From: Sabellastarte sp. h YS-2021
Taxonomy: Eukaryota; Annelida; Polychaeta; Sabellida; Sabellidae
Direction: 5' to 3'
NCBI GenBank assembly: GCA_964017235.1
Contig: OZ024931.1
Location: 96,676,221 to 96,740,220 of the forward strand
DNA: 64,000 nt
The notes beneath the pieces are model-generated. The model was not told where the DNA came from. It ran no database searches and was given only the letters and a program-made list of their open reading frames with translations. Below, piece after piece: positions 12,801-56,125 of this stretch. How positions within the stretch are numbered: position 1 is the stretch's first letter; each line of letters starts with the position of its first letter. Position numbers and translations under genes: made by a program.

Positions 12801-12949
12801 CTGACAAACAAATGTTCATCAAACGTGTTAAACATTATCACCAATGGCTACGTACTGCCATTCATTTCAGAACCAAGTCTGGTCAGATTCCCTCTGATTC
12901 GGTCAGAATACAATGCCCTTCAAAAAGCAGGCTCAACACTTTTCTACAT

Positions 12950-14120: not shown

Positions 14121-14224
14121 CTGAACCACAAACTTCCACTGTATGTGTCTCCAGTCCCAGACCAAAAATACTTGGGACATAGATACTCGGAACATAAACT
14201 GGACGGGTCTCACTACCTATGCTT

Positions 14225-14990
14225 ACCCTCCGACATCCCAAAAGTTCCAGGAATCTTCCAAAATGGAACCTTTCTGTTGTTCTCAATGAGCTCACAAAAG
14301 CATCCTTTGGGCCTATGAAAGACACAGACCTTGAACATCTTACCATCAAAACTGCTTTCTTGCTAGCTTTGGCCTCCGGCAAGCGCCGCAGCGGAATCCA
14401 TGCCTGGGTTGCATACAAAGTATCTAATCTAGGCCAATGGGAAAAGGTTGCCTTGTTCCCTTCTTCTGATTTTATAGCCAAAAACCAACTAGCAAGAGAA
14501 GGTTCACAAGTGTGTCTCCGGTGACTATTCCTGCTCTAACTACCATTGTAGACAGACAATTCAAAGAATACAGGACCTTGTGTCCCGTGCGGGCCCTGAG
14601 GTACTATTTGGACCAAAGACCTGAGAGGGTCTCGATCCCTCCCTTTCATCTCCTTCAAGAAAGGACACACCTCAGACATCAGGCCTGCTACTCTTTCTTC
14701 TTGGTTGAAACAAACCATTCTCCTTTGTTATAAACAAGCAGACCAACAAACCTTGGACTTGGTCCAAGAATTAAAGCGCATGACATTAGGGCCTTCGCGG
14801 CCAATAAGGCCTTTTTACGGTGGGGTATCGGTGGACCAAATCATGCAAGCCTGTCACTGGAAAACTCACAACACATTTACAAATTTTGACCTAAAAGACC
14901 TTACTTGGTCAGACAATGACAACAATATGTATCTGGGACCAGTGGTGGCAGCACAACAAGTCCTAGACCCTTCCCCTCAGACCAGTCATC
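14225..14990 (+). pseudogene. DIRS tyrosine recombinase, N-terminally deleted and frameshifted
   Basis: The remaining blocks are 'TAFLLALASGKRRSGIHAW' (box I Arg kept), 'CPVRALRYYLDQ', and 'ACHWKTHNTFTNFDLKDL'. The last differs from copy 1 by Tyr to Asp at the position of the catalytic tyrosine ('NFYLKD' in copy 1). The HxxR block is also lost through a frameshift near 14780. The N-terminal core-binding domain is removed by the 550-bp deletion. The product could not be active. Confidence 0.8.
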
Positions 14991-21969: not shown

Positions 21970-22160
21970 TTTTATTGCGTTAATACATCCTATCCAATGG
22001 ACAATAGCTTATCCGGTCGGCGCGGACCAGCCCGCCAAACGTCAGAAAAAGACGTCCTGTGTCTCCACCGGCTAGGCCGGCCCAGTACTGTGCACTCGCC
22101 AGATGGCGTGTCGTACTTCCTTCCTGTCTAGACAGCGTGACGTCATAGCATCTTTTTCGT
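21970..22160. repeat. DIRS family II left inverted terminal repeat
   Basis: Contains 'ctatccaatggacaatagct', 'gacgtcctgtgtctccacc' and 'tgtctagacagcgtgacgtc', each found inverted at 35058-35240. The outermost 25 bases differ from the right end and are instead complementary to 34925-34955. Confidence 0.85.
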
Positions 22161-22273
22161 TTGGCGCATGACTAGTGCACAGGAATTTTTTCAGCCAGAT
22201 ATATTTTAAAGTTTTCATCAGACATTTTGTTCTGGAAGCTTTCTTATTGTGTCCAACGGATAGTATTTATATC

Positions 22274-24427
22274 ATGTCTTCTCCAGGACAACGCAGGGGG
22301 AGTTGTGGTCACGCCATGGCTAATTTTGACACTCATCAGTATTGCGCACGCTGCAGAGAGAAGGGTAAGGGCTCTGACCCCTGTATTAAAGAACCACAAT
22401 CAGATAACTGCTCCATTTGTAATGCCTTTTCTGAAGAGCAGCGTCAGCAGTTAGCTACACCTTCTTATAGATTGAAGAAGGAGAAACGGGAGGCTAAGAA
22501 GCTTGTTACAGCTCCACCTCAAGAATCAGAAGAGTTGGTGGACCCCGCTAGTGTAGCTGTTATAGGGGCTGTGGATAAAGGTTCTCTGAAATCTCCCTCT
22601 CCCGCCCCTCCACCAGAGAAAAAGACCAAGAAGGACTTAAAAAAGGATATTAGGAAGGACAAATCCCCCCCTGCTAAAGCTTCCAAATCTACCAGTCAGA
22701 CCACTGCAGACTCTAAAATTGCAGACTTGGACCTTAAGTGGTCGGAACGTTTCAACCGCTTAGAAGCGTTGATTTTATCAAAGAACTTTGAACCTACCTT
22801 TTCTGCCAACGTTAAGGTTACACCGACCCATTCACCTCCGTCATCGATTGAAAATGTGTCTGAGCCGTTTATCCGGCCTTCAACTTCATCCACGCTTCCT
22901 GGAAATGGCTCCTCTGCTGAAAAGCATCAGCCTACCAGTAAAGCAGTGACCGACAAGCCGACTTCTTCTTCTAAGTTTCCTGGTACGGGCTTCTCTGCTA
23001 CCCAGCATCAGCCGGCCAGTCAAACTAAATCCAGCCGACCTACATCAACCTCCAAGTTTCCTGGACAAGGCTCCTCTGCTAGTATGCATCAGCCTGCCAG
23101 TAAAACTGCTAGTAGCCGACCTACTCCACTGGACTCGGTTCAGAACCGGCCTGCTGTTACCGACCGACCTCTCCCCACAGGACCGGCCGACACCGGCTCT
23201 CCTACTCTGCATAGATCTAGAAGGGGTAGTGTATCCAGCCTTTCCTCAGAGGCCAACAGTGTCCAGTCGGACCGACCTCCTTTGGATCTATACACGGAGG
23301 AAGGGGAACTCTCTGAGGACCCGGATCAAACAGTCATGGACCAGGACCAACCTATTTCGGAAGAACAAAATTATAGAGAGACAATGCAAGGCATCCGTTC
23401 TTATATGGGATGGTCCCATATTCCAGAGGTCGACAACTTAACAGCCACTTCAGATGACAACCCCTTTGCAGGGCCTAAGACTGTGACACCGGGCAAAGTT
23501 TCAATTAAAATGCCCACAGAGGAGTGGCTCTGTAAGAAGCTAGGGAAGCTAAATTTGACACTAACTGAAGGGTATCCCTCCCGTGGCTCAGAAGCCGGTG
23601 GTTTGGCAAAAGATGTGTTTCTCAGACCTCCCCGTTCTCAGTCAAAATGGTACGGCCTGCACACCGACTCTCAACCGGATCCGACTAAAGTGACCAGTTG
23701 GAGTACTGACGCCTCCAAACTAAACAGCAGTTACAGCCGGATTGCCCGTTACACCGGACTTTCTTCCACTCCACCTGCTTCACGCAGGATAGCTCAGGAA
23801 ACGCTGCGCCGGTGGGAAAGGTCGGCTAGGGAAGCCTCCGTTGTGTGTAATCAGGCTGCGAGTTTTAATCGGTGTTTGTTTAGAGTACAACAAAGCATGA
23901 AAGATCACATCAAGACACTGTCTTCTGAAAATAAGGGTAAAGGATCTTCAAAGACTTCAGTGGCCATTGATGAGTTAAACTACCTCCTGGACTTCAACTC
24001 CAGTATTACACAAGCAACCGCGAAGTCCATGGAGCACTTGTCGGATTTTGTGTTCATAACCATGGGGAATCTCACCCTGGTCCGTAGGGACGCGTATCTT
24101 AGCCACCTCAGGACGGGTATCAAGCAGGACACCCTCACAGCTTTGAGAGCCGCCCCTCTTCACATACCGACACTCTTCCCGGATGCCACTATTAAGCGTG
24201 CAGAGGAAGACATTGCTCAGTTTGAGTCAAAAGGACACACCGGACAGCAGCATAGCAAGGGTCGTTACCACCCTTATGAGCGTCCGGACAAGAGACACAG
24301 TGGAAAAGACACCAAATCGGAGAAACCGGCTTGGAAAACAATTGGGAAGAAACAGTTTAGAAAAGGGAAAGGACGTGCTTCCACCTACTCTTCCCGACCT
24401 GCCAAGGGCCAGCAGTCGTACAAATGA
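22274..24427 (+). CDS. DIRS Gag-like protein
   Basis: The 717-aa frame is open from an ATG at 22274. The frame extends upstream to a GTG at 22175, but the ATG giving 'MSSPGQRRGSCGHAM' precedes the first conserved block. Residues about 10-60 hold a Cys/His-rich motif, 'CGHAM..FDTHQYCARCREKGKG', then 'CSICNAFSEEQ', typical of DIRS Gag N termini. A long Ser/Pro/Thr-rich low-complexity linker follows (about 75-380), including imperfect repeats of 'SSKFPGTGFSA'-type. A conserved globular part (about 400-650) and a basic C terminus ending 'KGRASTYSSRPAKGQ' complete it. Gag packages the element RNA. It lies 1.1 kb downstream of no other gene and is separated from RT by the nested element. Confidence 0.8.
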   Translation: MSSPGQRRGSCGHAMANFDTHQYCARCREKGKGSDPCIKEPQSDNCSICNAFSEEQRQQLATPSYRLKKEKREAKKLVTAPPQESEELVDPASVAVIGAVDKGSLKSPSPAPPPEKKTKKDLKKDIRKDKSPPAKASKSTSQTTADSKIADLDLKWSERFNRLEALILSKNFEPTFSANVKVTPTHSPPSSIENVSEPFIRPSTSSTLPGNGSSAEKHQPTSKAVTDKPTSSSKFPGTGFSATQHQPASQTKSSRPTSTSKFPGQGSSASMHQPASKTASSRPTPLDSVQNRPAVTDRPLPTGPADTGSPTLHRSRRGSVSSLSSEANSVQSDRPPLDLYTEEGELSEDPDQTVMDQDQPISEEQNYRETMQGIRSYMGWSHIPEVDNLTATSDDNPFAGPKTVTPGKVSIKMPTEEWLCKKLGKLNLTLTEGYPSRGSEAGGLAKDVFLRPPRSQSKWYGLHTDSQPDPTKVTSWSTDASKLNSSYSRIARYTGLSSTPPASRRIAQETLRRWERSAREASVVCNQAASFNRCLFRVQQSMKDHIKTLSSENKGKGSSKTSVAIDELNYLLDFNSSITQATAKSMEHLSDFVFITMGNLTLVRRDAYLSHLRTGIKQDTLTALRAAPLHIPTLFPDATIKRAEEDIAQFESKGHTGQQHSKGRYHPYERPDKRHSGKDTKSEKPAWKTIGKKQFRKGKGRASTYSSRPAKGQQSYK

Positions 24428-24565
24428 CAATCACTGTATGACACCCTTGCAGGGACGACTGCTGGCCGGGAGCCTTCCTCAGACTTTAGTAAATCCTGTT
24501 TTGTCAAATGTAAAATCTCATGTTGTTCCAAATGCTCATACTGTGCCCGGGCATTCGCAAAAGAA
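24428..24565. other. DIRS gag-RT intergenic segment, left of nested element
   Basis: Short non-coding link that ends at 'gcattcgcaaaagaa', where the Ngaro-like element begins. DIRS sequence resumes at 31465 with 'agatctaagtcccggg'. Confidence 0.6.
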
Positions 24566-24745
24566 TAGGGGGTGGAGCATTGGGCGCCACCTTATTCAGT
24601 GCAACCCCAGTGAATTTTCTTGTTTTCAATACCTTCGATTGGGTATTGATGTATTGCTAACCCCTTGCCGCCAAAAATATTCCTTTCTTCATTCAACACT
24701 TCAATGTCAAAGGGGCAAGACCTGTTTTTATAATTTGAATTTTTA
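24566..24745 (+). repeat. Split direct repeat A1
   Basis: 180 bp from 'tagggggtggagcattgg' to 'tttgaattttta'. It is apparently identical to A2 (30164-30343). Confidence 0.88.
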
Positions 24746-25287
24746 GCCAGAACTTTAAGTTTGTATGCCCTAAGTGTTGGATATGTGTGCTCTGGCTGGA
24801 AAATTTTTATGTGTTATATAACAAACATTCATCTCATCAGTTATCTGCAGACGTGAAGGACTTTGATCAGCACAGAATCTGGATTTAGTGCTTTGTATAA
24901 TGCGAAACGTGCTCTGGGTTGCTGGAGCCACAGATAAGGAATGAGTTTTATTTAGTTATTTTACAATTTTATACATAATTTTACAAACTATTTTAAGTCA
25001 TTCGTTTTACAAATTTTAGTTTATTTACATGTTGACGGTAGATTTGTAAAATCTTATGCTCCTGTAGAAACGTCATATATATTTCTGATTATATTGTATC
25101 ATTTATCTGACCTATGGTCAGGGCAGGGGTTATGCAATTGACTGATAAACAACTTGCGCTCATCCTGTGAAACTCATTCGAACATTCTTGGTTTTCCCAT
25201 TATACAAAGCACGGGTCATTGTATTGAAAGTTTCAGATCACAAACATTGACAATTATCTCAAAATAATTATATAAAAAAGTGAAAAA
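24746..25287 (+). other. Ngaro-like element 5' leader
   Basis: AT-rich untranslated leader between A1 and the gag ATG. It contains an 'ataaaaaagtgaaaaaatg' approach to the start codon. No ORF of note. Promoter activity would be expected in A1 or here, but no clear TATA signal stands out. Confidence 0.5.
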
Positions 25288-26286
25288 ATGCCTCAGAAAC
25301 AATTCCTGTGTAACAAATGTGGAGACGTTCACAAAAGACCGATCAACAGCAAGTGCACATTTGCCAGTACTATGGACAGTGACTCAGAAAGTCAAGTTGA
25401 ACTTTCACCATCACATAGTGGCCTGACTAGTCAGGCAGTGGGAAATGACTTAAACTTACAAATCTTGGCTGAACTCAAGAGTTTGGGTGGCAGGATGACT
25501 GCCATGGAGAAAAAAATGTGTGACACCAGCCCAGCAGAGGTCAACCAGAGGTCACGGGCCAGCCATGTACCAGGTGCTGTGGTAGCTTCTCCCGATTCTG
25601 CACAACTGGACGAGGTAGTGGTACCTTCAGTAGCAGCCCTCCAAGGAACCCCTCATATACAAGCAGAAGTGGACAGAAGGCTCAAGCATCTGGCTGAACT
25701 AAATGAAGCAGGTAAATTGAAGTCACAAAGGGGTGGTAGTGATACAGTCTGGGTAAAAAAGCAGGTACCGTGGCCTCAGAATTTCGTGTTAGGTGGAAAT
25801 AATAAGTCCAGAATGTCATATGACAACCTAAGTTGGTGCCAATGGGTATCCGGTTTTGCCATGATTGCCAGAGAAGAAACTAATATTCAAACGAAAAATG
25901 CCATGTTGGATTATCTCAGTGAGATAATGGAAGATGCAAACGATTTCAGTTGGCAATCTGCTAAGGCTTCGCATGCGGTTTTATTATGTAGGATGGAGGA
26001 GGGGAAAGTTGATTGGTCTGAGACCAGTAAAATAGATAGGATTAGGCGTGCACATGCACAGAGAGCCCCTCCTCAAAATCTCGCAAGTACCAATAAACCA
26101 AAATCAGAGTTAAAAACCATGGTTTGTCGATTTTATCAAAGAGGAACCTGTCAAAAAGACAAAGATCACGAAACTGGGCAAATTTTTTACAAACATGTGT
26201 GTGCCACCTGCTTTGCCATGGGTAAAGAATATAGACATATGGCAAAAGATTGTAGAGTACCCCCTAAACCTGCAAAAAACGATTAG
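25288..26286 (+). CDS. Ngaro-like Gag protein
   Basis: 332 aa from an ATG. The N terminus has a Cys-x2-Cys ... His ... Cys motif, 'FLCNKCGDVHKRPINSKC'. A middle segment 'LQILAELKSLGGRMTAMEKK' looks like a short coiled coil. A conserved region reads 'KSQRGGSDTVWVKKQVPWPQ', then 'MSYDNLSWCQWVSGFA'. The C terminus has a zinc-finger-like cluster 'CRFYQRGTCQKDKDHE', then 'CATCFAMG..YRHMAKDC'. Presumed to bind element RNA and form particles. The stop is 11 nt before the RT start, in a different frame. A related broken copy lies on the minus strand at 45660-46241. Confidence 0.8.
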   Translation: MPQKQFLCNKCGDVHKRPINSKCTFASTMDSDSESQVELSPSHSGLTSQAVGNDLNLQILAELKSLGGRMTAMEKKMCDTSPAEVNQRSRASHVPGAVVASPDSAQLDEVVVPSVAALQGTPHIQAEVDRRLKHLAELNEAGKLKSQRGGSDTVWVKKQVPWPQNFVLGGNNKSRMSYDNLSWCQWVSGFAMIAREETNIQTKNAMLDYLSEIMEDANDFSWQSAKASHAVLLCRMEEGKVDWSETSKIDRIRRAHAQRAPPQNLASTNKPKSELKTMVCRFYQRGTCQKDKDHETGQIFYKHVCATCFAMGKEYRHMAKDCRVPPKPAKND

Positions 26287-26297
26287 GGCACTGCCCA

Positions 26298-28736
26298 ATG
26301 GCAGTGCAGAGTCATGTAGTAAATGTAAATAAATGTGTAAAAAAGTATAACTCAAAAATTGTGCATGCCACTGTAGTTAACAATGGTACTAGCATCAACT
26401 GGAAGGCTGACTGGGCTCGGTTTCGAGGCAAAACATATGCACAGGTTTTAAAATCTAATATCGACAATTGTCGCAGGTCTAGGGTTCAAGCTAAATACAA
26501 AGTGGATATTCCTAGGTCAAGGGAAAGACATTTCAAATTTGTCAACACTGACACAGTTGCTTCTGTCGGTCTTCCAGTGCATGCAAAGTATCAAAAATCG
26601 ATGTCTGGGAATATGAATACAAAGATAACTAAAAATTTCCAAAATCCATCATCCAATGAGGGTTTTGTTTGTCCCACTGCAAACAGGTTTGCATTATTAG
26701 ACCTCAATGCAGCAGAACAGAACAATGACTGTGATTCCAGTGTTGGAATTAACAAAAACCCCGACACAAATGAACTGAAACCTATTAACCAGGTCAAGGT
26801 TTCTAAACAGTCCAAAAATATTGGAAAAAACCAGTTAATACATATTGCTTGCAATGTCAACCATAGTGGTCAAAAAGAGGGAAAAAATTGTCAAAAACCG
26901 TCAAAATTGTGCCCGGAAACGCCTGAAGACAAATATGATCTAGGCCTTCAGGTTAAATCACACAACAAAGACAGATTAAATCAAGCAAGGTCGGATCCGA
27001 CTTATAAAAAGTGGAGTGAACAAACGGATGACAAGTTTGGTTTCATACCCTTAGGTCCCCTGGTAATACCGACGTCAGACAAAAGAACACACCTAGGTTC
27101 GGACCCCATAAAATTGTATGATTTAACAAGAAAGGAAACTACATTTAATTTTCTGTCCACACAAATTCAGATTCCTTCCCAGCTGAATGCAGACGCGTGG
27201 GAAAAATTATTAGAAAATTATTGGGATCAACAATTGCCATTTCTTATTAGGTACGGCTTTCCACTTGATTTTGACAGAAATTCTAAATTGGGACAAAATG
27301 ATAAAAATCACACTTCGGCATTAGCCTTCCCTCAGGATATAGATGCCTACTTAAAAGAAGAAATTAGTTATGGCGCCATTTTTGGCCCATATAAGCATCC
27401 ACCCTTTGACGACTTTCACACTTCTCCTTTCATGACCAGGCCAAAGCCTGGAGCTGCACATAGGCGAGTCATTATTGACTTGAGTTTTCCTCATGGTCAG
27501 GCAGTCAATTCCAATATCAGTAAAAATCAGTACCTGGGCACAGAATTTGTATTGACTTTACCATCCATTGACACCATTACAAACAAGGTTAAACGATTTG
27601 GCAAAGGTTCACTATTATACAAGATTGATATTAGTCGGGCCTTTAGGCTTGTAAAAATTGACCCCAGGGACTATTTTTTGTTAGGTTTAAAGCATCAGGA
27701 CTATTATCTGGACACCTGTTTGCCGTTCGGATACAGGAACGGATCCGGAATTTTTCAACGACTCAGCGACGCCATACGCTTCATAATGAAGTCACAAGGC
27801 CATGACGTCATCAATTATATTGATGACGTCATTGGTTTTGGCACTATTTCCAATGCCAAACCATCTTTTGAAGCACTGACCAACTTACTTCAAAAATTGG
27901 GACTTGATATCAGCATCAAAAAATTGGTTCAACCGTCAACTAAAGTAACCTGTTTAGGGGTTGAAGTAGACACAAAAACTTTCACAGTAGCAATTCCCAG
28001 TGAAAAAGTATCCGAAATCCTGAAAAAATGTCACCAATGGTCACACAAAACATATGCCACAAAAAATGAATTACAATCTCTTCTAGGTTCCCTTTTATAC
28101 ATATCAAAGTGTGTAAAATCTTCCAGAGCTTTCCTCAATAGAATGCTGGACACTTTAAGGAGACACTTTGGCACTGATAATATTGTCCTGGATATTGAGT
28201 TCCACAGAGATTTAAACTGGTTTAAAAAATTTCTCAAAAAATTTAATGGCACAGCATTTTTTGATCACCGCCCTGTAAAGGCTACTATTGAGCTTGACGC
28301 ATGTTTACAAGGTCTTGGGGCTATATATAGAAATCAAGTGTATGCCATTCCCATTCCGCATTATTGTGATTCATTTTCCATAGTTCACCTGGAAATGTTG
28401 AATATTTTAGTCGCCATCAGAGTTTGGGGGAATGATTGGAAACATCAACGTGTATTAATCAAATGTGACAATCAGGCAGTTGTCTCGGTCTTAAATTCAG
28501 GGAAAACTCAGGATTTAACACTGGCAGCAATAGCCAGAAATATTATGATGGAAATTTCAGATCAGGATATTGACTTGCAGGTTATTCACATTCTGGGAGT
28601 TGAAAATAAAGTAGCTGACTTACTGTCCAGATGGTTTATTACTGACAACCCAGGTAACATTTTGAATAATTATGTTGCTAGCCCCATGTGGATGCATCTT
28701 AGTACAGATATTGCTTTCATAGATTGGTCTATATAA
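26298..28736 (+). CDS. Ngaro-like reverse transcriptase/RNase H
   Basis: 812 aa, ATG start. About 330 N-terminal residues are unassigned. RT follows: 'RRVIIDLSFPHG', 'SLLYKIDISRAFR' (first catalytic Asp), 'CLPFGYRNGSGIFQR' and 'VINYIDDVIGFG' (the YxDD box, near nt 27815-27850). RNase H then has 'TIELDACLQGLG' (Asp), 'SIVHLEMLNILVA' (Glu), 'IKCDNQAVVSVL' (Asp) and 'VENKVADLLSRW' (Asp). All catalytic acids are present. It makes DNA from the element RNA, probably as a circular intermediate. Its end overlaps the open YR frame by 13 nt (28724-28736). Confidence 0.9.
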   Translation: MAVQSHVVNVNKCVKKYNSKIVHATVVNNGTSINWKADWARFRGKTYAQVLKSNIDNCRRSRVQAKYKVDIPRSRERHFKFVNTDTVASVGLPVHAKYQKSMSGNMNTKITKNFQNPSSNEGFVCPTANRFALLDLNAAEQNNDCDSSVGINKNPDTNELKPINQVKVSKQSKNIGKNQLIHIACNVNHSGQKEGKNCQKPSKLCPETPEDKYDLGLQVKSHNKDRLNQARSDPTYKKWSEQTDDKFGFIPLGPLVIPTSDKRTHLGSDPIKLYDLTRKETTFNFLSTQIQIPSQLNADAWEKLLENYWDQQLPFLIRYGFPLDFDRNSKLGQNDKNHTSALAFPQDIDAYLKEEISYGAIFGPYKHPPFDDFHTSPFMTRPKPGAAHRRVIIDLSFPHGQAVNSNISKNQYLGTEFVLTLPSIDTITNKVKRFGKGSLLYKIDISRAFRLVKIDPRDYFLLGLKHQDYYLDTCLPFGYRNGSGIFQRLSDAIRFIMKSQGHDVINYIDDVIGFGTISNAKPSFEALTNLLQKLGLDISIKKLVQPSTKVTCLGVEVDTKTFTVAIPSEKVSEILKKCHQWSHKTYATKNELQSLLGSLLYISKCVKSSRAFLNRMLDTLRRHFGTDNIVLDIEFHRDLNWFKKFLKKFNGTAFFDHRPVKATIELDACLQGLGAIYRNQVYAIPIPHYCDSFSIVHLEMLNILVAIRVWGNDWKHQRVLIKCDNQAVVSVLNSGKTQDLTLAAIARNIMMEISDQDIDLQVIHILGVENKVADLLSRWFITDNPGNILNNYVASPMWMHLSTDIAFIDWSI

Positions 28737-29737
28737 CAGGTTTACACAAAACAGCTGCGCACTTGGCTTCCAGAGCTGTAGACAGAGTACAACAGGCACT
28801 CAGACCAGCCACCATGGCTTCCTATGGCCGAAAATTTCGTCTATTTTTGGCTTATTGTTGCTTCATACAGGTTCAGGTACACCAAGTAACACCCTTAGTT
28901 CTCTTGTCGTTTATGGAATTTTTAATTCATAATGGAAGTTCATATTCTGCCGTTGCAAACTATCTTTCAGCTATAAAGACAAGCCTTGCAATGCATGGTC
29001 TTTCAGTGTTCTCGTTCTTGGACCCCAGAATAAAGTACTTCCAAAAATCTTTGATCCTCAATAAAAAATTTACTGCAAAAATCAAAAAAATTATAGATAT
29101 CAAGACCCTCACTGAAATTGTTTTTGTTTGTGACACTATGTGGATGGGACAAATTTTTAAAGCATTATATCTAGTGGCTTTCTTTTCCTTTTTACGCATA
29201 TCCAATTTGGTCCCACACAAAATTTCTGCTTTTTCACCATTAGAACAGTTAAGTCGAGGGGATATATTTTTCTCACCCCCTGGCCTCCATATCCTCATTA
29301 AGTGGAGCAAAACCATGCAAACAAGAGACACCGTAAAAATCATTAAACTACCTGCATTGCATTCATCACCCTTGTGCCCTGTCCAAGCTGTCAAAAATTT
29401 GTTAATGCTTACACCTGGTGGTCAGGACACACCCTTATTTCAGATAAAAAATAATAAAGCTCAGTGGGTTCCCTTAACTGATACTAAGACTAGACGGAAT
29501 TTCTCCCAAGTTCTTCAGAGGCTTGGTCTCAGTGATTCATCCATGTCCCTCCACACCTTCAGGCGTTCAGGTGCAACATTGGCCTTTAACTCCAATGTAG
29601 CCCTTCAAAACATTCAGAGTCATGGCACCTGGACGTCTGATTGTGTGTGGAGGTACATTGTTCAAGATCATGATGCATCACAGGAGGTAGCAAATGCCTT
29701 CCAGTCTCTGCTCACTACCCCTACCACTACTTCCTAG
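28724..29737 (+). CDS. Ngaro-like tyrosine recombinase
   Basis: The frame is open from 28724; the first ATG is at 28814 in a good context (ACCATGG). However, the conserved N-terminal 'RVQQALRPATMASYGRKFR' begins before that ATG, so expression may use a -1 frameshift from RT or another route. The N-terminal core-binding domain occupies about residues 20-120. The catalytic part has 'FFSFLRISNLVPHK' (box I Arg), 'IKWSKTM' (Lys), 'LHTFRRSGATLAF' (HxxR), 'QSHGTW' (His/Trp) and 'VWRYI' (nucleophile Tyr). All the R-K-HxxR-H/W-Y residues are present. It should integrate the circular DNA. Confidence 0.88.
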   Translation: MVYITGLHKTAAHLASRAVDRVQQALRPATMASYGRKFRLFLAYCCFIQVQVHQVTPLVLLSFMEFLIHNGSSYSAVANYLSAIKTSLAMHGLSVFSFLDPRIKYFQKSLILNKKFTAKIKKIIDIKTLTEIVFVCDTMWMGQIFKALYLVAFFSFLRISNLVPHKISAFSPLEQLSRGDIFFSPPGLHILIKWSKTMQTRDTVKIIKLPALHSSPLCPVQAVKNLLMLTPGGQDTPLFQIKNNKAQWVPLTDTKTRRNFSQVLQRLGLSDSSMSLHTFRRSGATLAFNSNVALQNIQSHGTWTSDCVWRYIVQDHDASQEVANAFQSLLTTPTTTS

Positions 29738-29746
29738 CTGGGCATT

Positions 29747-29769
29747 GGTGGAGGTTGGCATCTACCTCA

Positions 29770-29804
<35 letters not shown>

Positions 29805-30163
29805 TCTTTTACTGCATAAACTTAATTCTTAATTTAGGGTCACCTTCGTTTGGTTCTAAGTAGGTTTATCTGTGAAGTAAAATCTTTAAGGCCACCTTAT
29901 CTTATCGCATATTGCATTCAGTAATTCTTCTTATGTAAAGTGTTGTACAAGGACTGTAACTTCATCATCCTTAATTTATGGTGGCATTAAACTGAGTTTA
30001 GTCCAAATTATTGAGGTGACCCTAAACTTAAAAAGATGCCTTGTAGTATTGTACATAAACATTAGATGAACAGATTATTAAAAGATTATATCCCATGTAG
30101 TTGTGTTCTTGCATACATAGTCATGGTTTACATATTGTCATGGTCACAAGGGTAGGGGCACTG
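29747..30163 (+). repeat. Split direct repeat B1
   Basis: 417 bp from 'ggtggaggttggcatctacc' to 'gggtaggggcactg'. It carries an (AT)n microsatellite at about 29773-29800. It matches B2 except for a few repeat units and starts 10 nt after the YR stop. Confidence 0.88.
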
Positions 30164-30343
30164 TAGGGGGTGGAGCATTGGGCGCCACCTTATTCAGTGC
30201 AACCCCAGTGAATTTTCTTGTTTTCAATACCTTCGATTGGGTATTGATGTATTGCTAACCCCTTGCCGCCAAAAATATTCCTTTCTTCATTCAACACTTC
30301 AATGTCAAAGGGGCAAGACCTGTTTTTATAATTTGAATTTTTA
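30164..30343 (+). repeat. Split direct repeat A2
   Basis: Directly abuts B1 with no spacer. It is apparently identical to A1. Confidence 0.88.
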
Positions 30344-31043
30344 CCCTCCCCCCACCCTGGTTCATTTTTCATTTCACCTGGAGCAAGTTTCAGGAGGTCG
30401 TCCTTCTGTGAACCTAACTTAACACCCTCTGTGGCGCAGGGGAGGGGGTGAGTTCCATGTATGTGCCCCTAGCTTGTTACCAATGGGGTTCACAGCATTG
30501 GCGCTTGTTAGCTAACAGAGGGACTTCCTCCTTGTCTCTTCATCAAAAATTTCCTGAATAGGACCTTTTTTCACTCATCTCATTACTTCCAGGGTATAGT
30601 TGTCACTTATATGCGTCATTCAGCACTGAGTTTCACTGGAGGGGTGTTCAGTTGTTAGTATATATGGTTATTTTCAGATCAATGATGATAGTCAACGATT
30701 TTCAGTCTTAAATTTGTTACAATTGCACAAATGATCTTGTATATTCTTCAATGTGCTAACAGTGTTTGTAGTTTCAGATTGGAGGGGTTGACTGTGGAAT
30801 TTGACACCTCACTGACAGTCAGGATTCCAACAGCCTCTGCGAATAAATTTTAATGTCTCGATTTTATTCACATTTTGTACCTAGGGGCTAGTCAAAACAT
30901 AGGCATGTTCACACTGTCAATTGTTAGTGTAAGGGCTGAATTATTCAGCCACATAAGGCCTAAGGCAGGAATGGACTGACCTCATGGACTCCTGTTTTTA
31001 TTTTGAGTTTTAGCTAGGAACATGTCTACTCTTTTATTTAATG
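30344..31043. other. Spacer between A2 and B2
   Basis: 700 bp with no recognisable ORF and not repeated elsewhere in the window. It begins 'ccctccccccaccctgg'. Its function is unknown, but it must be carried by the element. Confidence 0.5.
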
Positions 31044-31066
31044 GGTGGAGGTTGGCATCTACCTCA

Positions 31067-31105
<39 letters not shown>

Positions 31106-31464
31106 TCTTTTACTGCATAAACTTAATTCTTAATTTAGGGTCACCTTCGTTTGGTTCTAAGTAGGTTTATCTGTGAAGTAAAATCTTTAAGGCCACCTTA
31201 TCTTATCGCATATTGCATTCAGTAATTCTTCTTATGTAAAGTGTTGTACAAGGACTGTAACTTCATCATCCTTAATTTATGGTGGCATTAAACTGAGTTT
31301 AGTCCAAATTATTGAGGTGACCCTAAACTTAAAAAGATGCCTTGTAGTATTGTACATAAACATTAGATGAACAGATTATTAAAAGATTATATCCCATGTA
31401 GTTGTGTTCTTGCATACATAGTCATGGTTTACATATTGTCATGGTCACAAGGGTAGGGGCACTG
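31044..31464 (+). repeat. Split direct repeat B2
   Basis: 421 bp copy of B1 with a slightly longer (AT)n tract (about 31072-31100). It ends '...ggggcactg', after which DIRS sequence resumes. Confidence 0.88.
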
Positions 31465-31519
31465 AGATCTAAGTCCCGGGCCAGTAGATTGTATTTACAG
31501 AAAGTACATATTAAAGTCT

Positions 31520-33630
31520 GTGAAAAGTGTTTCTTGTGTCATTCCATTGTCTTGTGTCCAACCTGCAACAAGTGTAAAACATGCTGCCTCCAATCCACCT
31601 GTAGGGGCTCGACTACAGAACTTTTGGCAAACTTGGCTGGATCTAGGGGCCGGTCCGAAAATAGTTCAAATCCTGAGGGAAGGTTATACCCTCCCTTTCC
31701 GGACCCGACCCAATCTTACAAGGTCTCCGACTGTCATAAGCCGTTATGTCAATCCTCACAGGAACAGCTACCTGTTGGAGGCATTACATCAGCTTATGAA
31801 CAAAGAGGCAATAGAACTGGTCCACAATCAAACATCTCTGGGGTTTTCAACCGACTCTTTCTAGTCCCCAAACCCAACAACAAATGGAGGCCAATACTGG
31901 ATTTAAGCAAACTAAACCTCTTCCTCAAGGTGGAGAAATTCAAAATGGAGACACCAGAAACCATCAGGACATCCCTCCAACAAGGGGAGTGGGTCACCTC
32001 AGTAGACTTCAAGGATGCCTACTTCCACATACCGATACAGGAACAATCCAGGAAATACCTAAGATTTCATGTCCAGGGCCGGACTTATCAATTCAAGGCA
32101 CTGCCCTTTGGTCTGTCCACAGCGCCCATGGAGTTCACTGTACTAGCCAAAGAGGTAAAACTGATGGCCATACGCAAGGGTATAAGAATCCACCAGTACC
32201 TAGACGACTGGTTGGTGAGGGCCAGATCCCTAGAAATTTGTCTCCAGCACACCCAAATTCTCATCAAAATGTGCCAGAACCTAGGCTGGCTGGTGAATTT
32301 GGAAAAATCAGAACTGGAACCCAAACAGGTCTTCAGTTTTGTAGGTTACCAATTCGACCTCAGGTTCGGCCGGGTCAGACCGACTCCGGACCGGTGGCGA
32401 AACCTTCAGGACAAAGTACAGACGCTTCTGTCTCTACCGGCCTGTCCGGTCCGGCAGTTTATGTCCCTGATAGGCCTTTTAACAGCCACAGAAAAACAGG
32501 TTCACCTCGGCCGACTACACATGAGACCTATACAGTGGCACCTCAAAAACAATTGGCGGGTACCAGAATCTCTAGAAAAGATTATCCCTCTACCAAGATC
32601 CCTACACCCTCACCTACAATGGTGGCTAGAGGAAGACAATGTGCTTCAAGGCCAACCATTACACCCAGTAAAACATGCTCTGCAAATATTTACAGACGCA
32701 TCAAAAGAAGGATGGGGCGCTCACTTAAACGAGCTCATTGCAAGAGGGTCCTGGTCGGTGCCGGAAAGCAAACTGCACATAAATTATCTGGAACTCAAAG
32801 CAGTGTTTCTAGCCCTCAAAGAGTTCCAAGACCTCTGTGTAGACAAAATCGTTCTAGTGGCAACCGACAATACTACAGTGGTAGCTTACATAAACAAGGA
32901 AGGGGGCATGAGGTCGGGCCCACTGTGTGCCCTACTGTGGAGAATCTTGACCTGGTGTTCCCAGCGACAAGTGACCCTAAAAGCCCGGCACATCCCAGGC
33001 CATCTCAATGTGATAGCAGACAAGCTATCCAGGCTGGGTCAGATCATCCAAACAGAGTGGTCCCTCCTTCCGGAAGTCTTTCAACAGATATGCAGCCAAT
33101 GGCACCAGCCTCAAATAGATCTCTTTGCCACGAGGTTCAACCACAAGTTACCTCAGTTTGTCTCTCCAGTACCGGACCCCCTGGCTGTAGCAGTGGATGC
33201 ACTTACTCTGTCATGGGACGAGCTGGATGCATACGCCTTCCCACCGACCGCCATATTGGGCAAAGTGGTGGAGAAGCTACTGGACTCCCCGTGCAAGAGA
33301 CTCATTCTGATTTCCCCTGGGTGGCCCAACATGCCTTGGTTTTGGGACCTAGTGGCCATGTCCAGTCAGGTCCCTCTAAGCCTACCCAACCTGCCCAGTC
33401 TTCTTACACAGCCCTTCAATCAGATCCCTCACAGAAATCTGACAAATCTAAATCTCCATGCCTGGCTCCTAGAGCCTCTAAAATCAAAGAACAGGGCTTC
33501 TCTGAGGCAGTGGCAGCAAGAATTGAGGCTCCTCAAAGAAGATCTACCAGATCAGTCTATGAGGCAAAGTGGACCATTTTTACAAAGTGGTGCGACGCTA
33601 ATCAGGTGGACTTCAGGTCACCACCTGTAA
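31520..33630 (+). pseudogene. DIRS family II reverse transcriptase/RNase H, one frameshift
   Basis: The N-terminal part (frame from about 31520 to 31845) holds 'LREGYTLPF' and 'LLEALHQLMNKEAIELV'. The frame then shifts near 31845 and continues 'NRLFLVPKPNNKWRPILDLS', 'VTSVDFKDAYFHIPI' (catalytic Asp), 'LPFGLSTAPMEFT' and 'HQYLDDWLVRA' (LDD box). RNase H has 'IFTDASKEGWGAHL', 'LELKAVFLALKEF', 'VATDNTTVVAYI' and 'LNVIADKLSRLG'. The DIRS-specific 'IDLFATRFNHKLPQFVSPVPD' region follows, to 33630. Comparison with related copies suggests one base is missing at the shift. All catalytic acids are otherwise present. No upstream ATG can be assigned with confidence. Confidence 0.85.
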
Positions 33631-34544
33631 AGTCGGTGGCTGACTTCCTAATGCACCTTTTTGAGGACAAGAAGTTACAGCCCAGCACCATTGATGGATA
33701 CAGGTCTGCCATTGCTGATAAACTGGGTAACACGACAGTCAGTATCAGCAAAGATGATAATCTCACTCGTCTCTTGGAAAGTTTCCACAGAGATAGACCC
33801 AAAGGGCGGAGGGGTATTCCCTCCTGGAACCTGTCCCTGGTGCTACACCAGCTGACCAAGGCCCCTTTTGAACCTCTCAGGGAAGCATCTCTGAAGCACC
33901 TGACCTTCAAAACTGTCTTCCTTTTAGCCCTAGGCTCTGGAAAAAGGAGGAGTGAGATCCATGCATGGCAGCACAAGAACATCAGACATCAGTCCGATTG
34001 GTCTAAGGTGTCTTTGTTCCCATCTCCCAGCTTTCTTTCCAAGAACCAGCTGGCCAAAGAGGGTCTGGAGAGTGTAGCCCCAGTGGTCATACCAGCCCTG
34101 GCTCCTACTCTAGATAAATCCCTCAAGTCTGACAGATCCCTTTGTCCAGTCAGAGCCTTGCGCTACTATTTGGACAGGACTTCAGACATAAGACAACACA
34201 AGGAGCTAGTCTTTGTCTCCTTCAAGAAAGGCTTCGATAAAGACATCTCCCCTGCCACTATCTCCTCATGGATCAAACAAACTGTGATCCTATGCTATGA
34301 GCTCTCTGATCATCAAGCCCATACCCTACATCAAGTTAAAGCTCATGATGTTAGGGCTTTCGCTGCTTCTAAGGCCTTCCAGTCGGGAGTCTCCTTGGAG
34401 CAGATCCTTTCAGCCTGCCACTGGAAGTCTCATAATACCTTCACTCAATTCTATCTGAAGGATGTGGCTTGGGCTGACTCAGAGCTCTACCATCTTGGTC
34501 CTGTTGTGGCTGCTCAGCAGATCCATCAACAGACCGGCACCTAG
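33400..34544 (+). CDS. DIRS family II tyrosine recombinase
   Basis: The recognisable protein starts near 33480 ('ASKIKEQGFSEAVAARIEAP') and ends at 34544. The same frame is open all the way back to 31884, over the RT gene. Core-binding part: 'SVYEAKWTIFTKWCDANQVD', 'STIDGYRSAIAD'. Catalytic part: 'LLALGSGKRRSEIHAW' (box I Arg), 'KAHDVRAFAASKAF' (HxxR), 'ACHWKSHNTF' (His/Trp) and 'FYLKDVAWAD' (Tyr). All expected residues are kept. The first ~150 nt overlap the RT ORF in another frame, so translation probably depends on frameshifting, splicing or internal initiation. It performs integration of the DIRS circle. Confidence 0.85.
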
Positions 34545-34917
34545 AGGAGATCTGTGCCTATGTATATAGTTGTACATATTTGTATATATTGCACGTATAG
34601 TTAAGAAGCATCAAAAAAAAAAAATAAATAAATAAAATCTCACGTACTTCCTCCGGGAGACTTGTTTTATGGGACTGAACTCATCCCTCTCTTCCCCTAC
34701 CTCAGAGCAGGTCTGTCAAAAAGGGGGGGGGGGGAGCAAGGTCGACTCTGACAGTTCCAGCCCGGTTAACCGGATGATGATATTCGACCATGGCCTTAGG
34801 GGTTTTGACTTCTAGGTCTTCCCAGGCTTAAAGGCAGAGTTTTCATTTAGCATGAGTTCACACAAGTCCCTAGTAGCTTACCCGCCGACCAAGCGGTAGT
34901 TATTCAGCTATTGTCCA
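34545..34917. other. DIRS family II 3' untranslated region
   Basis: Contains an A-rich 'aaaataaataaataaaat' stretch near 34615, poly-G near 34725, and segments such as 'gggactgaactcatccctct' shared with 57715-57740 of copy 2. Confidence 0.6.
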
Positions 34918-35010
34918 TTGGATAGGATGTATTAACGCAATAAAATTGCAAATTTAATAAGTAAATTAAATTTTTATAAGTTAATACCCTATCCAATGGA
35001 CACACAAGAC
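34918..35010. repeat. DIRS family II internal complementary region
   Basis: The left half ('agctattgtccattggatag' to 'acgcaataaaa') is the reverse complement of the element's first bases (21970-22005). The right half ('ttgcaaatttaataag' to 'accctatccaatgg') is the reverse complement of the last bases (35220-35279). The join corresponds to the two ends fused in a circle. Confidence 0.85.
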
Positions 35011-35057
35011 CCTCCCACCGACCCCGCTTTCAGTCTACTAGGGGTCTAATAGGTTTA

Positions 35058-35279
35058 GACAACAAAAAAGATGCTATGACGTCACGCTGTCTAGACAGGA
35101 AGGAAGTACGACACGCCATCTGGCGAGTGCACAGTACTGGGCCGGCCTAGCCGGTGGAGACACAGGACGTCTTTTTCTGACGTTTGGCGGGCCGGTCCGC
35201 GCCGACCGGATAAGCTATTGTCCATTGGATAGGGTATTAACTTATAAAAATTTAATTTACTTATTAAATTTGCAATTTT
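35058..35279. repeat. DIRS family II right inverted terminal repeat
   Basis: Inverse of the left repeat over about 190 bp. The terminal 50 bases ('gtattaacttataaaaattt' to 'gcaatttt') are right-end specific. Confidence 0.85.
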
Positions 35280-36571: not shown

Positions 36572-36742
36572 GACCGCGCACACATTCTCATTGTTACTGA
36601 CTATTTGGCTACTGAGAGACGTGTGTCACTGTTTTGTAGGGGTTTTTAGTTTTTTAAATATCATATAATACTTGAGCTTAAGGCAAATTTTACAGTTAGG
36701 AGACACATTTTACTTTTTTTTTTATTACTATTGACTGGAGTC

Positions 36743-37777
36743 ATGAGGAAAGAGAAAGGAAGGAAGAGAGGAAAGAAAAAGATGGATGAGAGGCAAGAGG
36801 AGAGGGAGAAGGAAAGTGGAGAGGTGGATGAAAGGATTGAGGAAAGGACGGAGGAGGGTACAGAGGAGGGTACACAAGAGACTGAGGAGCGATTGAAACT
36901 TACTGAGGAAGCTTGCGAAGAAGAAGAGAGGTGTGAGGAGGATTTAGAGAGTCACTCGGCACCCGAGAGAGCCAGGGTCTGTTCAACTTTCAGCCAAGAA
37001 ACTGCAATATTGGAGTTTGTGAAGGAGCATCCAGAGCTCTACGACAAGGAGCATGCACGTTTCCATGACAGACAGAAGAAGGAGGCTCTCTGGGCAGAAA
37101 TCTCTGCAGAACTGAAGCTCCAGCCCTTTGATGTCAGAAGATGGTTCGAATCCCAGCGAACGCGTTATGGCAAGCTGTCAAAACTACAATCTGGCCAAGC
37201 CCCAAGGGAGATGACCAAGAGACAGTCCTGGGTCTACCAGCAGATGGGTTTCCTTTATACCCATATCAGACGAAAGGGGGCCAGCAGAAGTTCAGGGTTC
37301 GAGGCCAGTCCAAATACCAGCAAGCAGGACGAATCTCGTGGGTCTACTACTGATACAGAACACCTCGAGTCCAGTGTCCTCAGGGAGAGTAGGAGTCAAC
37401 CTAGGTTCACATCTACACCAGTTTCAACAGACTCCAAGATACTCGAGCACTTTGACCAGATGAGGACATTGATCTCAGGTTTCCTGCAGCAGAAGTCAGA
37501 CAGGCAGCCCTTCTTTAACTACGTGGCATCAGAGGCTGAAAAGATGACCCAAGAGGAATTTGAGGACCTTAAGGGCAGAATTTTTAGAGATATTGAAAGC
37601 ATTAAGAGTAACCGTAGACGTCAACCACTAGCCAGAAGATCAGCCACTATTACCACAGAGTCCCAGAGGGTCGGGATACTGCCAACAACCACTCAACAGG
37701 CGTCTACTTCCACCCAAGCAGCAGCTAGCAGCAGTTACGTCATTCATAACCCCCATCATTGTAAAGAAAACCAGTAA
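36743..37777 (+). CDS. Harbinger Myb/MADF-like DNA-binding protein
   Basis: 344 aa from the ATG at 36743. An in-frame TTG upstream at 36731 is less likely. Residues 1-75 are highly charged (Lys/Arg then Glu-rich, coiled-coil-like). About 80-165 form a MADF/Myb-SANT-like domain: 'ILEFVKEHPELYDKEHARFH', 'LWAEISAELKL', 'DVRRWFESQRTRYGKL' and 'SWVYQQMGFLYTHI'. The C-terminal part has 'FFNYVASEAEKMTQEEFEDL', resembling the BESS-type tail of such proteins. In PIF/Harbinger elements this second protein binds the ends and helps bring the transposase to the nucleus. The frame is open and looks undamaged. Confidence 0.75.
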   Translation: MRKEKGRKRGKKKMDERQEEREKESGEVDERIEERTEEGTEEGTQETEERLKLTEEACEEEERCEEDLESHSAPERARVCSTFSQETAILEFVKEHPELYDKEHARFHDRQKKEALWAEISAELKLQPFDVRRWFESQRTRYGKLSKLQSGQAPREMTKRQSWVYQQMGFLYTHIRRKGASRSSGFEASPNTSKQDESRGSTTDTEHLESSVLRESRSQPRFTSTPVSTDSKILEHFDQMRTLISGFLQQKSDRQPFFNYVASEAEKMTQEEFEDLKGRIFRDIESIKSNRRRQPLARRSATITTESQRVGILPTTTQQASTSTQAAASSSYVIHNPHHCKENQ

Positions 37778-38036
37778 GGTGGTTATATTTCCTAAATATT
37801 TGTGAAGTGGAGTAAAATATTTTAATTTTAAGATTTCCAGGAAAACATTTCTGTTTCAAATATTTTTCCCCCCCAAAAAAAACAAATGTAGGTAAAATTA
37901 GGATGTAGCTTTCAAAATATATGCCATATTTATTCCATTTAGGAAGTTATGTTTGGCTTTGTGTGTTTCTTTTGATAATTATGTTTAGCACTGGGTTTGT
38001 CTGTATGTTAGTTGGCTGACTGGCATTTATTTCTGT
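37778..38036. other. Harbinger interior, 3' of DNA-binding gene
   Basis: AT-rich sequence with no gene. It includes a C8 and A8 run at about 37870. Confidence 0.4.
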
Positions 38037-38570
38037 CTGTTTGTTGGGTGGATGAATTATGTTGGCCATGGGGTTTGTCTGTTTGTTGGGTGGGTGAATT
38101 ATGTTGGCCATGGGTTTTGTTTGTTTATTGGTTGCGTGACTTCTGTCAGGCATTGGGTTTGTCTGTTTGTTGGGTGGGTGAATTATGTTGGCCATGGGGT
38201 TTGTCTGTTTGTTGGTTGCGTGACTTCTGTCGGGCATTGGGTTTGTCTGTTTGTTGGGTGGGTGAATTATGTTGGCCATGGGGTTTGTCTGTTTGTTGGT
38301 TGCGTGACTTCTGTCGGGCATTGGGTTTGTCTGTTTGTTGGGTGGGTGAATTATGTTGGCCATGGGGTTTGTCTGTTTGTTGGTTGCGTGACTTCTGTCG
38401 GGCATTGGGTTTGTCTGTTTGTTGGGTGGGTGAATTATGTTGGCCATGGGGTTTGTCTGTTTGTTGGTTGCGTGACTTCTGTCGGGCATTGGGTTTATCT
38501 GTTTGTTGGGTGGGTGAATTATGTTGGCCATGGGGTTTGTGTCTGTCTGTTGGTTGCATGACTTCTGTTT
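38037..38570. repeat. 84-bp tandem array inside the Harbinger element
   Basis: About six copies of an 84-bp unit made of two related 42-bp halves, 'tgttgggtgggtgaattatg' and 'tgttggttgcgtgacttctg', each with 'gggtttgtctgtttgttg'. Because 84 is divisible by 3, long open frames exist on both strands (for example 38012-38575 plus and 37947-38600 minus). These are by-products of the repeat, not genes. Confidence 0.85.
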
Positions 38571-38686
38571 GGTAATGTTTGGGTTATTTTGAACAAGCAT
38601 AGCTGATTAATTGTTTTTGGAATATTTGGTAGTCCTGAAAAGGACTGGTTATTAGTCCTGAAAAGGACTGGTTACTGCAGCAGGAG

Positions 38687-39927
38687 TTATATTCTGCCAT
38701 CTTGCCAGGCCACTGCTCCTTCATTATTGAAGTAGTCCTTGAGGTAATCCCTCTGTCTTTTGGCTTCTCTAGCAGGGTTTCTGTCTGGACCAACACCAGC
38801 AGCACCACCAATCAGTCGACAATCACCAGGCACATCATCATCTTCATCATCTCCAGGCTCTTGACCACCATGTTGACCTTGATACTGGCTTCTCAGTATG
38901 TTGTGCAGAACCACACAGGTCATGACCACATCCCTGACTGTTTCTGGGGGTAATTCAATAGTAGTCAACATCACTCTGAATCTTGAGACCAGGATGCCAA
39001 AAGCATTCTCAACAACTCTCCTGGCCCTTGATATTCTTTAGTTGGCAATCCTTTCCTCTCTGGTTAACATCCTTCTTCCATAGGGTTTCATCAGCCAGGT
39101 CTTCAGGGCAAAGGCATCATCTGCTAAAATGAAGTAGGGGACATCTCTACCACCCTGTGTTATAGGAGCTGGGTCAGGGAAGCCTATCCTGCCATCCTCA
39201 ATCCTCCACTTCAGCTGACAGGCATTAAATATCTGGGCATCTGAGCAAGATCCAGCTGTAATCACATCCACCCATCTGAACTTGTACTGTCCATCTACCA
39301 AGGCCAACATTACTATGGAAAAGAACCCCTTGTAGTTGTGGTACAGGGCACCAGAGTTCTTGGGTTTCTTCAGGGCCACATGCTTGCCATCAAGGGCACC
39401 CAGGGCATGTGGAACATTCCACCTGATCCTGAATTCCCTTTCCAGTTCTTTCCACTCATCTGGAGTAGTAGGACATCTGAGGTACTCTCTGGTGAACTCA
39501 TCCTGGATGGCCCTGCAGACCTCTTGTAGAAACTTGGTAATGGTGGATCTTCCAACCCTGAACTGACAGGATAATGATGTGTATGACTCTCCAGTGGCCA
39601 GATATCTGATGGTGAGGGCTAACTTTTCCCCAACACTGATTGGAGCTCTGTAGTTGGTGGCCTGCCTGGCTAGACGTGGTTCCAGTCTGGTCTTTATCAT
39701 TTCAAAGAATTCTGGGGTCATCCTCATGTAGTCGGTGAATCCTGGAATGTCTGTGGCATACAGTTCAGCCATAATGTTGTGGTAGGCCCCCTCTCCTCTC
39801 TCTGTAGTAGCCATGGCCTGACCCACATGTTGTGCCTTCTTCTAGGTCTCTGTATGGCTGGTGGTGGTGGTGATGGAGGTGCTTGTGGTGGTTGCTGTGG
39901 TCGACGTAGAAATAGCAAATACATCAT
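38687..39927 (-). pseudogene. PIF/Harbinger transposase (DDE), nonsense and frameshift
   Basis: From the ATG at 39927 the N terminus reads 'MMYLLFLRRPQQPP' and 'NMWVRPWLLQREERG'. A one-base loss in a G run near 39790 moves the rest to another frame: 'AYHNIMAELYATD', 'LALTIRYLATGESYTSLSCQ' (helix-turn-helix) and 'HALGALDGKHVALKKP' (first Asp). Next come 'YFILADDAFALKTWLMKPY' (second Asp) and, after a TAA stop at 39038-39040, 'RARRVVENAFGIL' (Glu). The C terminus runs to 38687. The DDE residues and expected spacing are all visible, and the total of about 410 codons is normal for the family. It would cut and paste the element if intact. Confidence 0.85.
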
Positions 39928-46902: not shown

Positions 46903-47050
46903 TGTAACATAATTATGGTTCCTAGTGTACCTTATGAACAATACTCTTTAATGCTGTTACACCAGTCAGTTGTTTGTCTGAGCTTATAGAATAAAGTAGT
47001 GCTTTGAGGATCAGTGTTTCTCTCCACACAAAATAGTTAAAAACATTACA
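46903..47050 (+). repeat. Gypsy 5' LTR
   Basis: 148 bp, TG...CA, starting 'tgtaacataattatgg'. It contains 'gaacaatactctttaatg' and 'agaataaagtagtgc', a possible polyadenylation signal region. Confidence 0.9.
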
Positions 47051-56120: not shown

Positions 56121-56125
56121 TCTCC

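Follow-up and report, generated by a model that had tools for sequence, protein, structure and literature searches.

The window analysed here, a 64,000-nucleotide (nt) stretch of contig OZ024931.1 from the annelid Sabellastarte sp. h YS-2021 (GenBank assembly GCA_964017235.1, positions 96,676,221 to 96,740,220 of the forward strand), contains at positions 24566-31464 (+) an element that we interpret, with a probability of roughly 0.8, as a young and structurally complete Ngaro-type retrotransposon, in which a Gag-reverse transcriptase (RT) fusion would be produced by -1 ribosomal frameshifting and a folded RNA would serve as a cis-acting signal. The element displays split direct repeats, an exact junction between its B and A repeats, a precise insertion into a DIRS retrotransposon, open reading frames (ORFs) and two conserved sequence signals. 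Judged from its sequence, it is possibly active.

Repeat structure and boundaries of the element

The following features were assigned to the element:
24566..24745 (+), split direct repeat A1, 180 nt, identical to A2; 5' end of the element (TAGGGGG), boundary deduced from empty sites
25288..26286 (+), ORF1, Gag-like, 332 amino acids (aa), Cys/His-rich C-terminus
26268..28736 (+), ORF2 frame, RT and RNase H, -1 relative to ORF1 and open from 26268; Pfam RVT_1 (1.2e-10) and RVT_3 (7.7e-05)
26274..26280 (+), slippery heptamer A AAA AAC in phase 0 of ORF1 (GCA AAA AAC)
26288..26307 (+), hairpin GCACTGCC-CAAT-GGCAGTGC, 8-bp stem, 7 nt after the heptamer
28703..29737 (+), ORF3 frame, tyrosine recombinase (YR), -1 relative to ORF2; PHROG integrase (6.8e-08)
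29747..30163 (+), split direct repeat B1, 417 nt, shorter than B2 by 4 nt in a TA run
30158..30200 (+), B1/A2 junction with the inverted arms GCACTG...CAGTGC
30164..30343 (+), split direct repeat A2, 180 nt
30344..31043 (+), A2-B2 spacer, 700 nt, without an ORF of at least 120 aa
30345..30538 (+), conserved structured RNA element of about 194 nt at the start of the spacer
31044..31464 (+), split direct repeat B2, 421 nt; 3' end of the element (GGCACTG), boundary deduced from empty sites

Alignment of the two repeat pairs proposed in a preliminary description of the window revealed no difference between A1 and A2 (180 bp) and no substitution between B1 and B2 (about 420 bp), the latter pair being distinguished by the single 4-nt length difference in the TA run. 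The proposed order A1-ORFs-B1A2-B2 was likewise recovered, with a spacer between A2 and B2, and B1 touches A2 without a spare base, as the last base of B1 is 30163 and the first base of A2 is 30164. The possibility that this join is an assembly artefact was ruled out, since B1 and A2 are adjacent to the base in all seven other near-identical copies that were read across it (L002-L008); an eighth copy on contig C4 matches B1 and A2 as one piece. A pattern for the start of A detected the join in 24 of 30 loci (L029-L058) and was silent in the remaining six. This set, which is used throughout, comprises the window copy (L029) and five near-identical copies, and its members are not independent, as several are near-identical copies of one family. 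The junction with its inverted arms probably represents a recombination site. The pair GCACTG...CAGTGC also occurs at the ORF1-ORF2 hairpin (26284-26307), and nowhere else in the window does such a pair occur within 40 nt.

Both ends of the element were fixed by empty sites in other copies of the host DIRS. The exact empty site, in which ...GCAAAAGAA is directly followed by AGATCTAAG..., is unbroken in 18 of 19 other host copies; as exceptions, L027 gave no exact probe match and L026 carries a small deletion just downstream. Accordingly, the element extends exactly from 24566 to 31464 and was inserted without target site duplication and without loss of target sequence. The 5' start TAGGGGG is present in all nine near-identical copies, window included, and the 3' end GGCACTG in every end that was read (ten copies with the window counted, one solo remnant and two A-ORFs-B forms). 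The first bases are variable in more diverged copies.

The absence of substitutions in 597 repeat positions sets a 95% upper bound of about 0.5% on repeat divergence (computed on 598 positions), a bound from which the insertion can be dated only on the condition that the repeats were identical at that time. According to the replication model for the group, the repeats are made identical at insertion. The view that the insertion is recent was upheld by the identity of the repeat pairs and by a copy on contig C6 that is 99.4-99.9% identical to the window copy in the ORF parts. A search of the genome (1.79 Gb, 647 contigs) identified at least 14 places, window included, with at least 98% identity across A1 plus the 45 nt behind it. 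The element's own family is small, and it belongs to a large Ngaro population with 121 scored YR matches, all at least 66% identical.

Coding capacity and classification

All three reading frames are open and contain the expected catalytic residues, as had been anticipated, including YIDD in the RT, acidic residues in the RNase H and R...HxxR...Y in the YR, which we take to be the characteristic motifs of these enzymes. ORF2 encodes 812 aa in the window copy and 802-825 aa in eight aligned Ngaro copies, and its frame has no internal stop in the copies on C6 (99%) and C210 (97%). The ORF1 protein is 68-98% identical in nine aligned relatives and gave no Pfam match. Pfam Phage_integrase was detected in 11 of 14 aligned YR members at E-values up to 0.1, the matches of the window copy lying below the curated cut-offs. 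Where dS was computable, the comparison with diverged copies yielded dN/dS values of 0.07-0.16, well below 1 in all three ORFs. The AlphaFold models of the YR and Gag proteins are poor (mean pLDDT 44 and 41), leaving the YR fold unconfirmed by structure. A PDB sequence search with ORF2 gave no match at E-values up to 0.001, that with the YR five weak matches (E 0.006-0.53) with no integrase named, and that with the YR profile none. Protein scans of viral contigs and a phage collection revealed no relative.

By published definitions, the element as read from its sequence is of the Ngaro type, considering the repeat layout, the RT/RNase H and YR, and the lack of room for a methyltransferase. Only 45 aa separate the VENKVAD motif from the end of ORF2, compared with 209 aa after the matching motif in the host DIRS; the absence of a methyltransferase is judged by this length, as Pfam names none in either the window element or the host DIRS. 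The layout had been attributed to the Ngaro/PAT group, of which the Ngaro part holds and the PAT part does not, since PAT elements carry, and are defined by, a methyltransferase (PMC4157794). The deduced RT is 23.5% identical to that of the host DIRS versus 64-99% to those of eight aligned Ngaro copies, and DIRS-type inverted terminal repeats or a complementary region with arms of at least 40 nt were found for the host but not at the ends 24566 and 31464. On these sequence features, the element is not a DIRS.

Several known systems resemble the element. The Ngaro of Cafeteria burkhardae (PMC8547959) shares the layout A1-[ORFs]-B1A2B2 with a Gag-like ORF1, an RT/RNase H ORF2 and a YR ORF3, and is likewise described with solo repeat remnants and insertions into other mobile elements; it differs in that the element studied here has a conserved putative -1 frameshift signal and a folded RNA, the word 'frameshift' being absent from the main text of that paper. 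ORF overlaps are described as unusual for Ngaro elements in a passage of PMC3266345. Fungal Ngaro elements contain RT/RNase H and YR ORFs, the YR being in frame or frameshifted with respect to RT-RNase H, but the shift there concerns the YR whereas the main signal here lies between Gag and RT; the passages of PMC3783388 on these ORFs name no slippery site or hairpin. The Ngaro-like element DIRS-53_XT of Xenopus has identical A1/A2 and B1/B2 repeats, RT/RNase H and YR, and no methyltransferase, but is described with a fourth ORF for an SGNH hydrolase (PMC9210276), whereas the A2-B2 spacer of the window copy shows no ORF of at least 120 aa. PAT-like elements share the split direct repeats and, in Pat1, a Gag zinc finger, but encode the methyltransferase (PMC4157794).

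A putative -1 frameshift signal between ORF1 and ORF2

A -1 ribosomal frameshift signal consists of a heptamer X XXY YYZ in phase 0, a short spacer and a stable structure. Retroviral gag-pro signals with A AAA AAC, for example that of mouse mammary tumour virus, combine a phase-0 heptamer, a short spacer and a downstream structure in this way. All of these components, together with a target frame at -1, are present at the end of ORF1, whose stop codon (26284-26286) falls inside the 7-nt spacer between heptamer and hairpin. Compared with the retroviral signals, the structure is a simple 8-bp hairpin, and it occurs in a tyrosine recombinase element.

The hairpin stem is exact in 28 of the 30 loci with the window copy counted (27 of the 29 others). 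In these 28 loci the spacer is always 7 nt long, and the heptamer reads AAAAAAC in 26 and AAAAAAT in two, with loop letters that vary freely. A genome-wide search for the whole signal pattern gave 129 matches versus none for a reversed control. Synonymous sites are near saturation between families (ORF2 dS of 1.1-2.9 in five comparisons), and the signal is still kept. These findings suggest that heptamer and hairpin probably constitute a textbook -1 frameshift signal joining ORF1 and ORF2, and that the ATG at 26298 is probably not the true start of ORF2. A few observations weigh against this interpretation: the hairpin has one mismatch in L050 and was not found in L039, and early AUG codons occur in the -1 frame of the window copy (9 codons in) and of the broken copy L040 (codon 24). 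A role of the hairpin as a recombinase site was considered, as it shares GCACTG/CAGTGC with the B1A2 junction, and was set aside because the phase, the heptamer and the loss of early AUG codons favour frameshifting. A whole-word literature search found nothing that pairs Ngaro with frameshifting or DIRS retrotransposons with a slippery frameshift.

A conserved, putatively structured RNA downstream of A2

The first 194 nt or so of the spacer are 81.5-99.5% identical, over the matched part, in 29 other copies. In L049 this stretch is 93.8% identical to the window copy, compared with 71% for ORF1, 72% for the RT part of ORF2, 68% for the YR part and 74% for repeat A; in L039 the value is 88.2%, compared with 81% for ORF1 and 80% for the RT part of ORF2. 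The stretch was also present in four of five places fetched solely from the position of the YR end in other families (YR 66-71% identical), with 81.5-88.6% identity. The sense strand of the alignment folds with a value of -58.9, compared with -35.1 +/- 3.9 for column shuffles (z -6.1; 0 of 100 shuffles), whereas the antisense strand gives a z of -1.6 (7 of 100). Paired cells amount to 98.3% versus 96.9% in shuffles, and compensatory cells with changes on both sides to 11 versus 4.0 (0 of 500). A coding role is disfavoured because one- and five-nt indels occur among the copies. Furthermore, a search of the window with a model of the RNA element detected this single copy at E-values up to 1, and the DIRS copies in the window accordingly lack it. 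An exact 23-nt pattern of the RNA core had no match in the viral and genome contigs.

Other results argue against a conserved RNA fold. Pairs changed on both sides number three of 52 versus 1.6 in shuffles, 22 of 500 of which reach three, and further pair types show no excess (24 versus 23.2; 161 of 500). Single-sequence folding is weak (z -1.7), repeat A is more conserved (91.3%) than the RNA element in L039, and L151, one of the five predicted places, lacks the RNA element. In addition, three of 24 control windows along the retrotransposon (30 shuffles each) reached z values of -4 or below, namely one at the frameshift hairpin, one at the ORF2-ORF3 overlap and one at a B1 inverted repeat; one further window gave -2.8 and the remainder -1.5 to +1.6. 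We infer that the folded RNA would be a signal working in cis on the genomic RNA, with packaging as the most likely role and recognition by RT or Gag, or export, as alternatives.

Alternative explanations

With respect to the coding region, one may suppose that the element is of the PAT type and has come to look like a Ngaro by convergent loss of its methyltransferase. Split direct repeats are common to PAT and Ngaro, and one such loss has been suggested for a C. briggsae lineage (PMC4157794), but the eight aligned Ngaro copies have a similar ORF2 length, so the loss would have to be old, and an RT with only 23.5% identity to the host DIRS fits poorly with the closeness of PAT to DIRS (PMC9210276); we consider this origin very unlikely. 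That translation of ORF2 begins at the AUG at 26298, either through reinitiation or on a spliced RNA, and that heptamer and hairpin are incidental, appears highly improbable. Such a start would account for the ATG that the window copy has at codon 9 of its -1 frame, but this ATG lies in the unconserved hairpin loop, whereas heptamer, 7-nt spacer and stem are conserved; the first AUG is located 65-256 codons into the frame in diverged copies with an open ORF2 (L036, L037, L041, L049, L052 and L057), and the pattern matches number 129 versus none for the reversed control.

The conserved 194 nt might instead act as DNA, providing accessory recombinase binding sites beside A2. The stretch adjoins the B1A2 junction and contains, by eye, short segments resembling the end of B and the start of A, but the strong fold on the sense strand alone argues against such a role, as do 174 G-U versus 7 A-C cells on the sense structure, a count that is biased by the choice of the structure on that strand; overall, this explanation is unlikely. 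It is very improbable that the stretch is a SINE-like or gene-derived module of the host genome acquired by the spacer. Some transposons share modules, and the genome yielded 293 first-look candidates; against this origin, 28 of the best 40 copies closely follow a Ngaro YR, ORF2 or B1A2 match on the same strand, and five of the best 40 lie in A-spacer-B remnants, with seven unassigned among the matches listed (counted by coordinates), and Rfam gave no match at the RNA element up to an E-value of 1. A cis-acting RNA signal downstream of A2, combined with frameshifting between ORF1 and ORF2, is preferred.

Translation of the tyrosine recombinase

The conserved YR protein has no preceding in-frame AUG in L040, L049, L052-L055, L057 and L058. 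At the overlap of the ORF2 stop with ORF3 (28720-28745 in the window), the copies share the conserved sequence TGGTCTATATAACAGGTTT; some of them have AUGA and others AUAA. The YR would be made by a non-standard route, and we would guess at stop-start reinitiation at AUAA/AUGA; splicing to CAG/G in the region of the ORF2 stop may be an alternative. The literature search found nothing pairing Ngaro with reinitiation. Of the YR copies listed with a 371-aa frame, 21 contain exactly one TAG inside the aligned region and one more contains two.

Insertion into a DIRS retrotransposon

The element interrupts a host DIRS that comprises two parts:
21989..24565 (+), 5' part of the host DIRS with an inverted terminal repeat (21989-22161) and the gag ORF
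31465..35279 (+), 3' part of the host DIRS with RT/RNase H, YR, an inverted repeat (35061-35233) and complementary arms (34942-35002 and 35219-35279)

The host family is young, as 11 of the best 40 copies listed, window included, tie for the top score over 366 nt. The insertion had been placed between gag and RT of the host; it is indeed located upstream of the RT domain, but inside the pol frame and not in a clean gap. The empty host copy L012 has an open pol frame that runs from the gag stop through the insertion point; compared with this copy, the host pol frame in the window is interrupted 138 nt (46 codons) past the gag stop. In L012:1-3366 and at 24425-24565 of the window, pol lies behind gag in the same frame, separated from it by a single stop, an arrangement suggestive of readthrough. 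Further DIRS fragments are located at 1-3009, 12940-14962, 46678-46931 and 56122-57578, so DIRS sequences are dense in this region.

The idea that residence within a DIRS is notable was not supported by a comparison of 5' insertion flanks of 280 nt (174 nt for C3solo) with 40 control stretches of 280 nt, of which 29 were taken 30 kb from an insertion and 11 at round positions, using a DIRS library. DIRS sequences were assigned to five of 29 other insertion flanks versus three of 40 controls (p 0.27). Direct library matches were obtained for five of 30 flanks, of which one belongs to the window, itself a library member, and hence for four of 29 others (p 0.44); the count of five includes L088 through its likeness to L090. 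A C3 copy within an unidentified gag-like frame was left out of the DIRS count. The control L112 rests on a 27-nt match, and without it the values are p 0.12 and, with four of 29, p 0.23. Among near-identical sites outside the window, a subset chosen afterwards, four of 14 lie in a DIRS (p 0.065, or 0.033 without L112). Targeting of DIRS is thus unsupported by the flank comparison, and only the post hoc subset leans toward it. Since DIRS sequences are common in this genome, occurring in two or three of the 40 control stretches, an insertion into one of them is expected now and then.

Copies and recombination remnants in the genome

Besides full copies, the genome contains derivatives of the element. 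A solo A-spacer-B remnant was found at C3:12835874-12837171, and contig C424 carries four spacer-B units, with A lacking its first 41 nt in the two whose start was read. Two A-ORFs-B forms (C2:144444045-144449641 and C6:70580225-70589803, the latter with extra internal length) terminate precisely at B, where no spacer match was listed. At least ten RNA cores follow each other near one element at C6:47455645-47471270, with spacings of 1440-1452 nt in seven of the nine gaps and of 2421 and 2905 nt in the remaining two, and a second core occurs 1350 or 1414 nt further on in two more elements (C2:130711668-130713241 and C7:110720481-110722001); these rows were read from coordinates alone. A-spacer-B units have apparently grown into arrays beside Ngaro elements, and unequal crossing-over between B repeats would explain both deletion and expansion.

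A satellite with a repeat unit of about 328 bp contains a full Ngaro copy (C210; L007/L062) as well as array-repeated A-spacer-B pieces (C424; L067) that are 5'-truncated where read. Within the window, positions 45672-46241 (-) contain another Ngaro gag fragment (40% identity over 205 aa). The region 36731-39826 contains one ORF on each strand with a 42-bp tandem array (37950-38621) between them; by eye, their products resemble the MADF protein and the transposase of a PIF/Harbinger element.

Proposed replication cycle and implications

In the proposed cycle, full-length RNA would be translated into Gag from ORF1, and ribosomes that shift by -1 on the heptamer A AAA AAC ahead of the hairpin would produce a Gag-RT/RNase H fusion; the YR (ORF3) would arise by a further unconventional route, for which stop-start reinitiation is a candidate. 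Immediately downstream of A2, the folded RNA would act in cis on the genomic RNA. The RT would then make a circle whose B/A join equals the internal B1A2 junction, and the YR would recombine this join into new sites, here a DIRS copy; the circle step is established theory for the group. A more far-reaching joint reading, to which we would give somewhat less than even odds, is that a new class of cis-acting RNA is common to the Ngaro elements of this animal. This RNA, a branched fold of about 160 nt with a fixed position immediately downstream of A2, exceeds the genes in conservation in the diverged copies for which both were compared and would select genomic RNA for packaging or start reverse transcription; under the same reading, Gag-RT would be made by programmed -1 frameshifting and the YR by stop-start reinitiation, and A-spacer-B units could grow into tandem arrays.

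We know of no primer for the start of reverse transcription in this group, and to our knowledge the Gag-RT ratio, the choice of RNA and the start of cDNA synthesis are poorly understood for tyrosine recombinase retrotransposons in general. In a limited search covering parts of the literature, neither RNA signal was found described. Should the RNA element serve in packaging or priming, it would, within that search, be the first such signal met for this order of elements. The family is ordinary by kind and the window copy a fine young example of it; the two conserved RNA signals represent a more valuable lead than the insertion itself. Being short and common to many copies, the 34-nt frameshift cassette and the 160-nt RNA element would offer direct and cheap handles on these steps.

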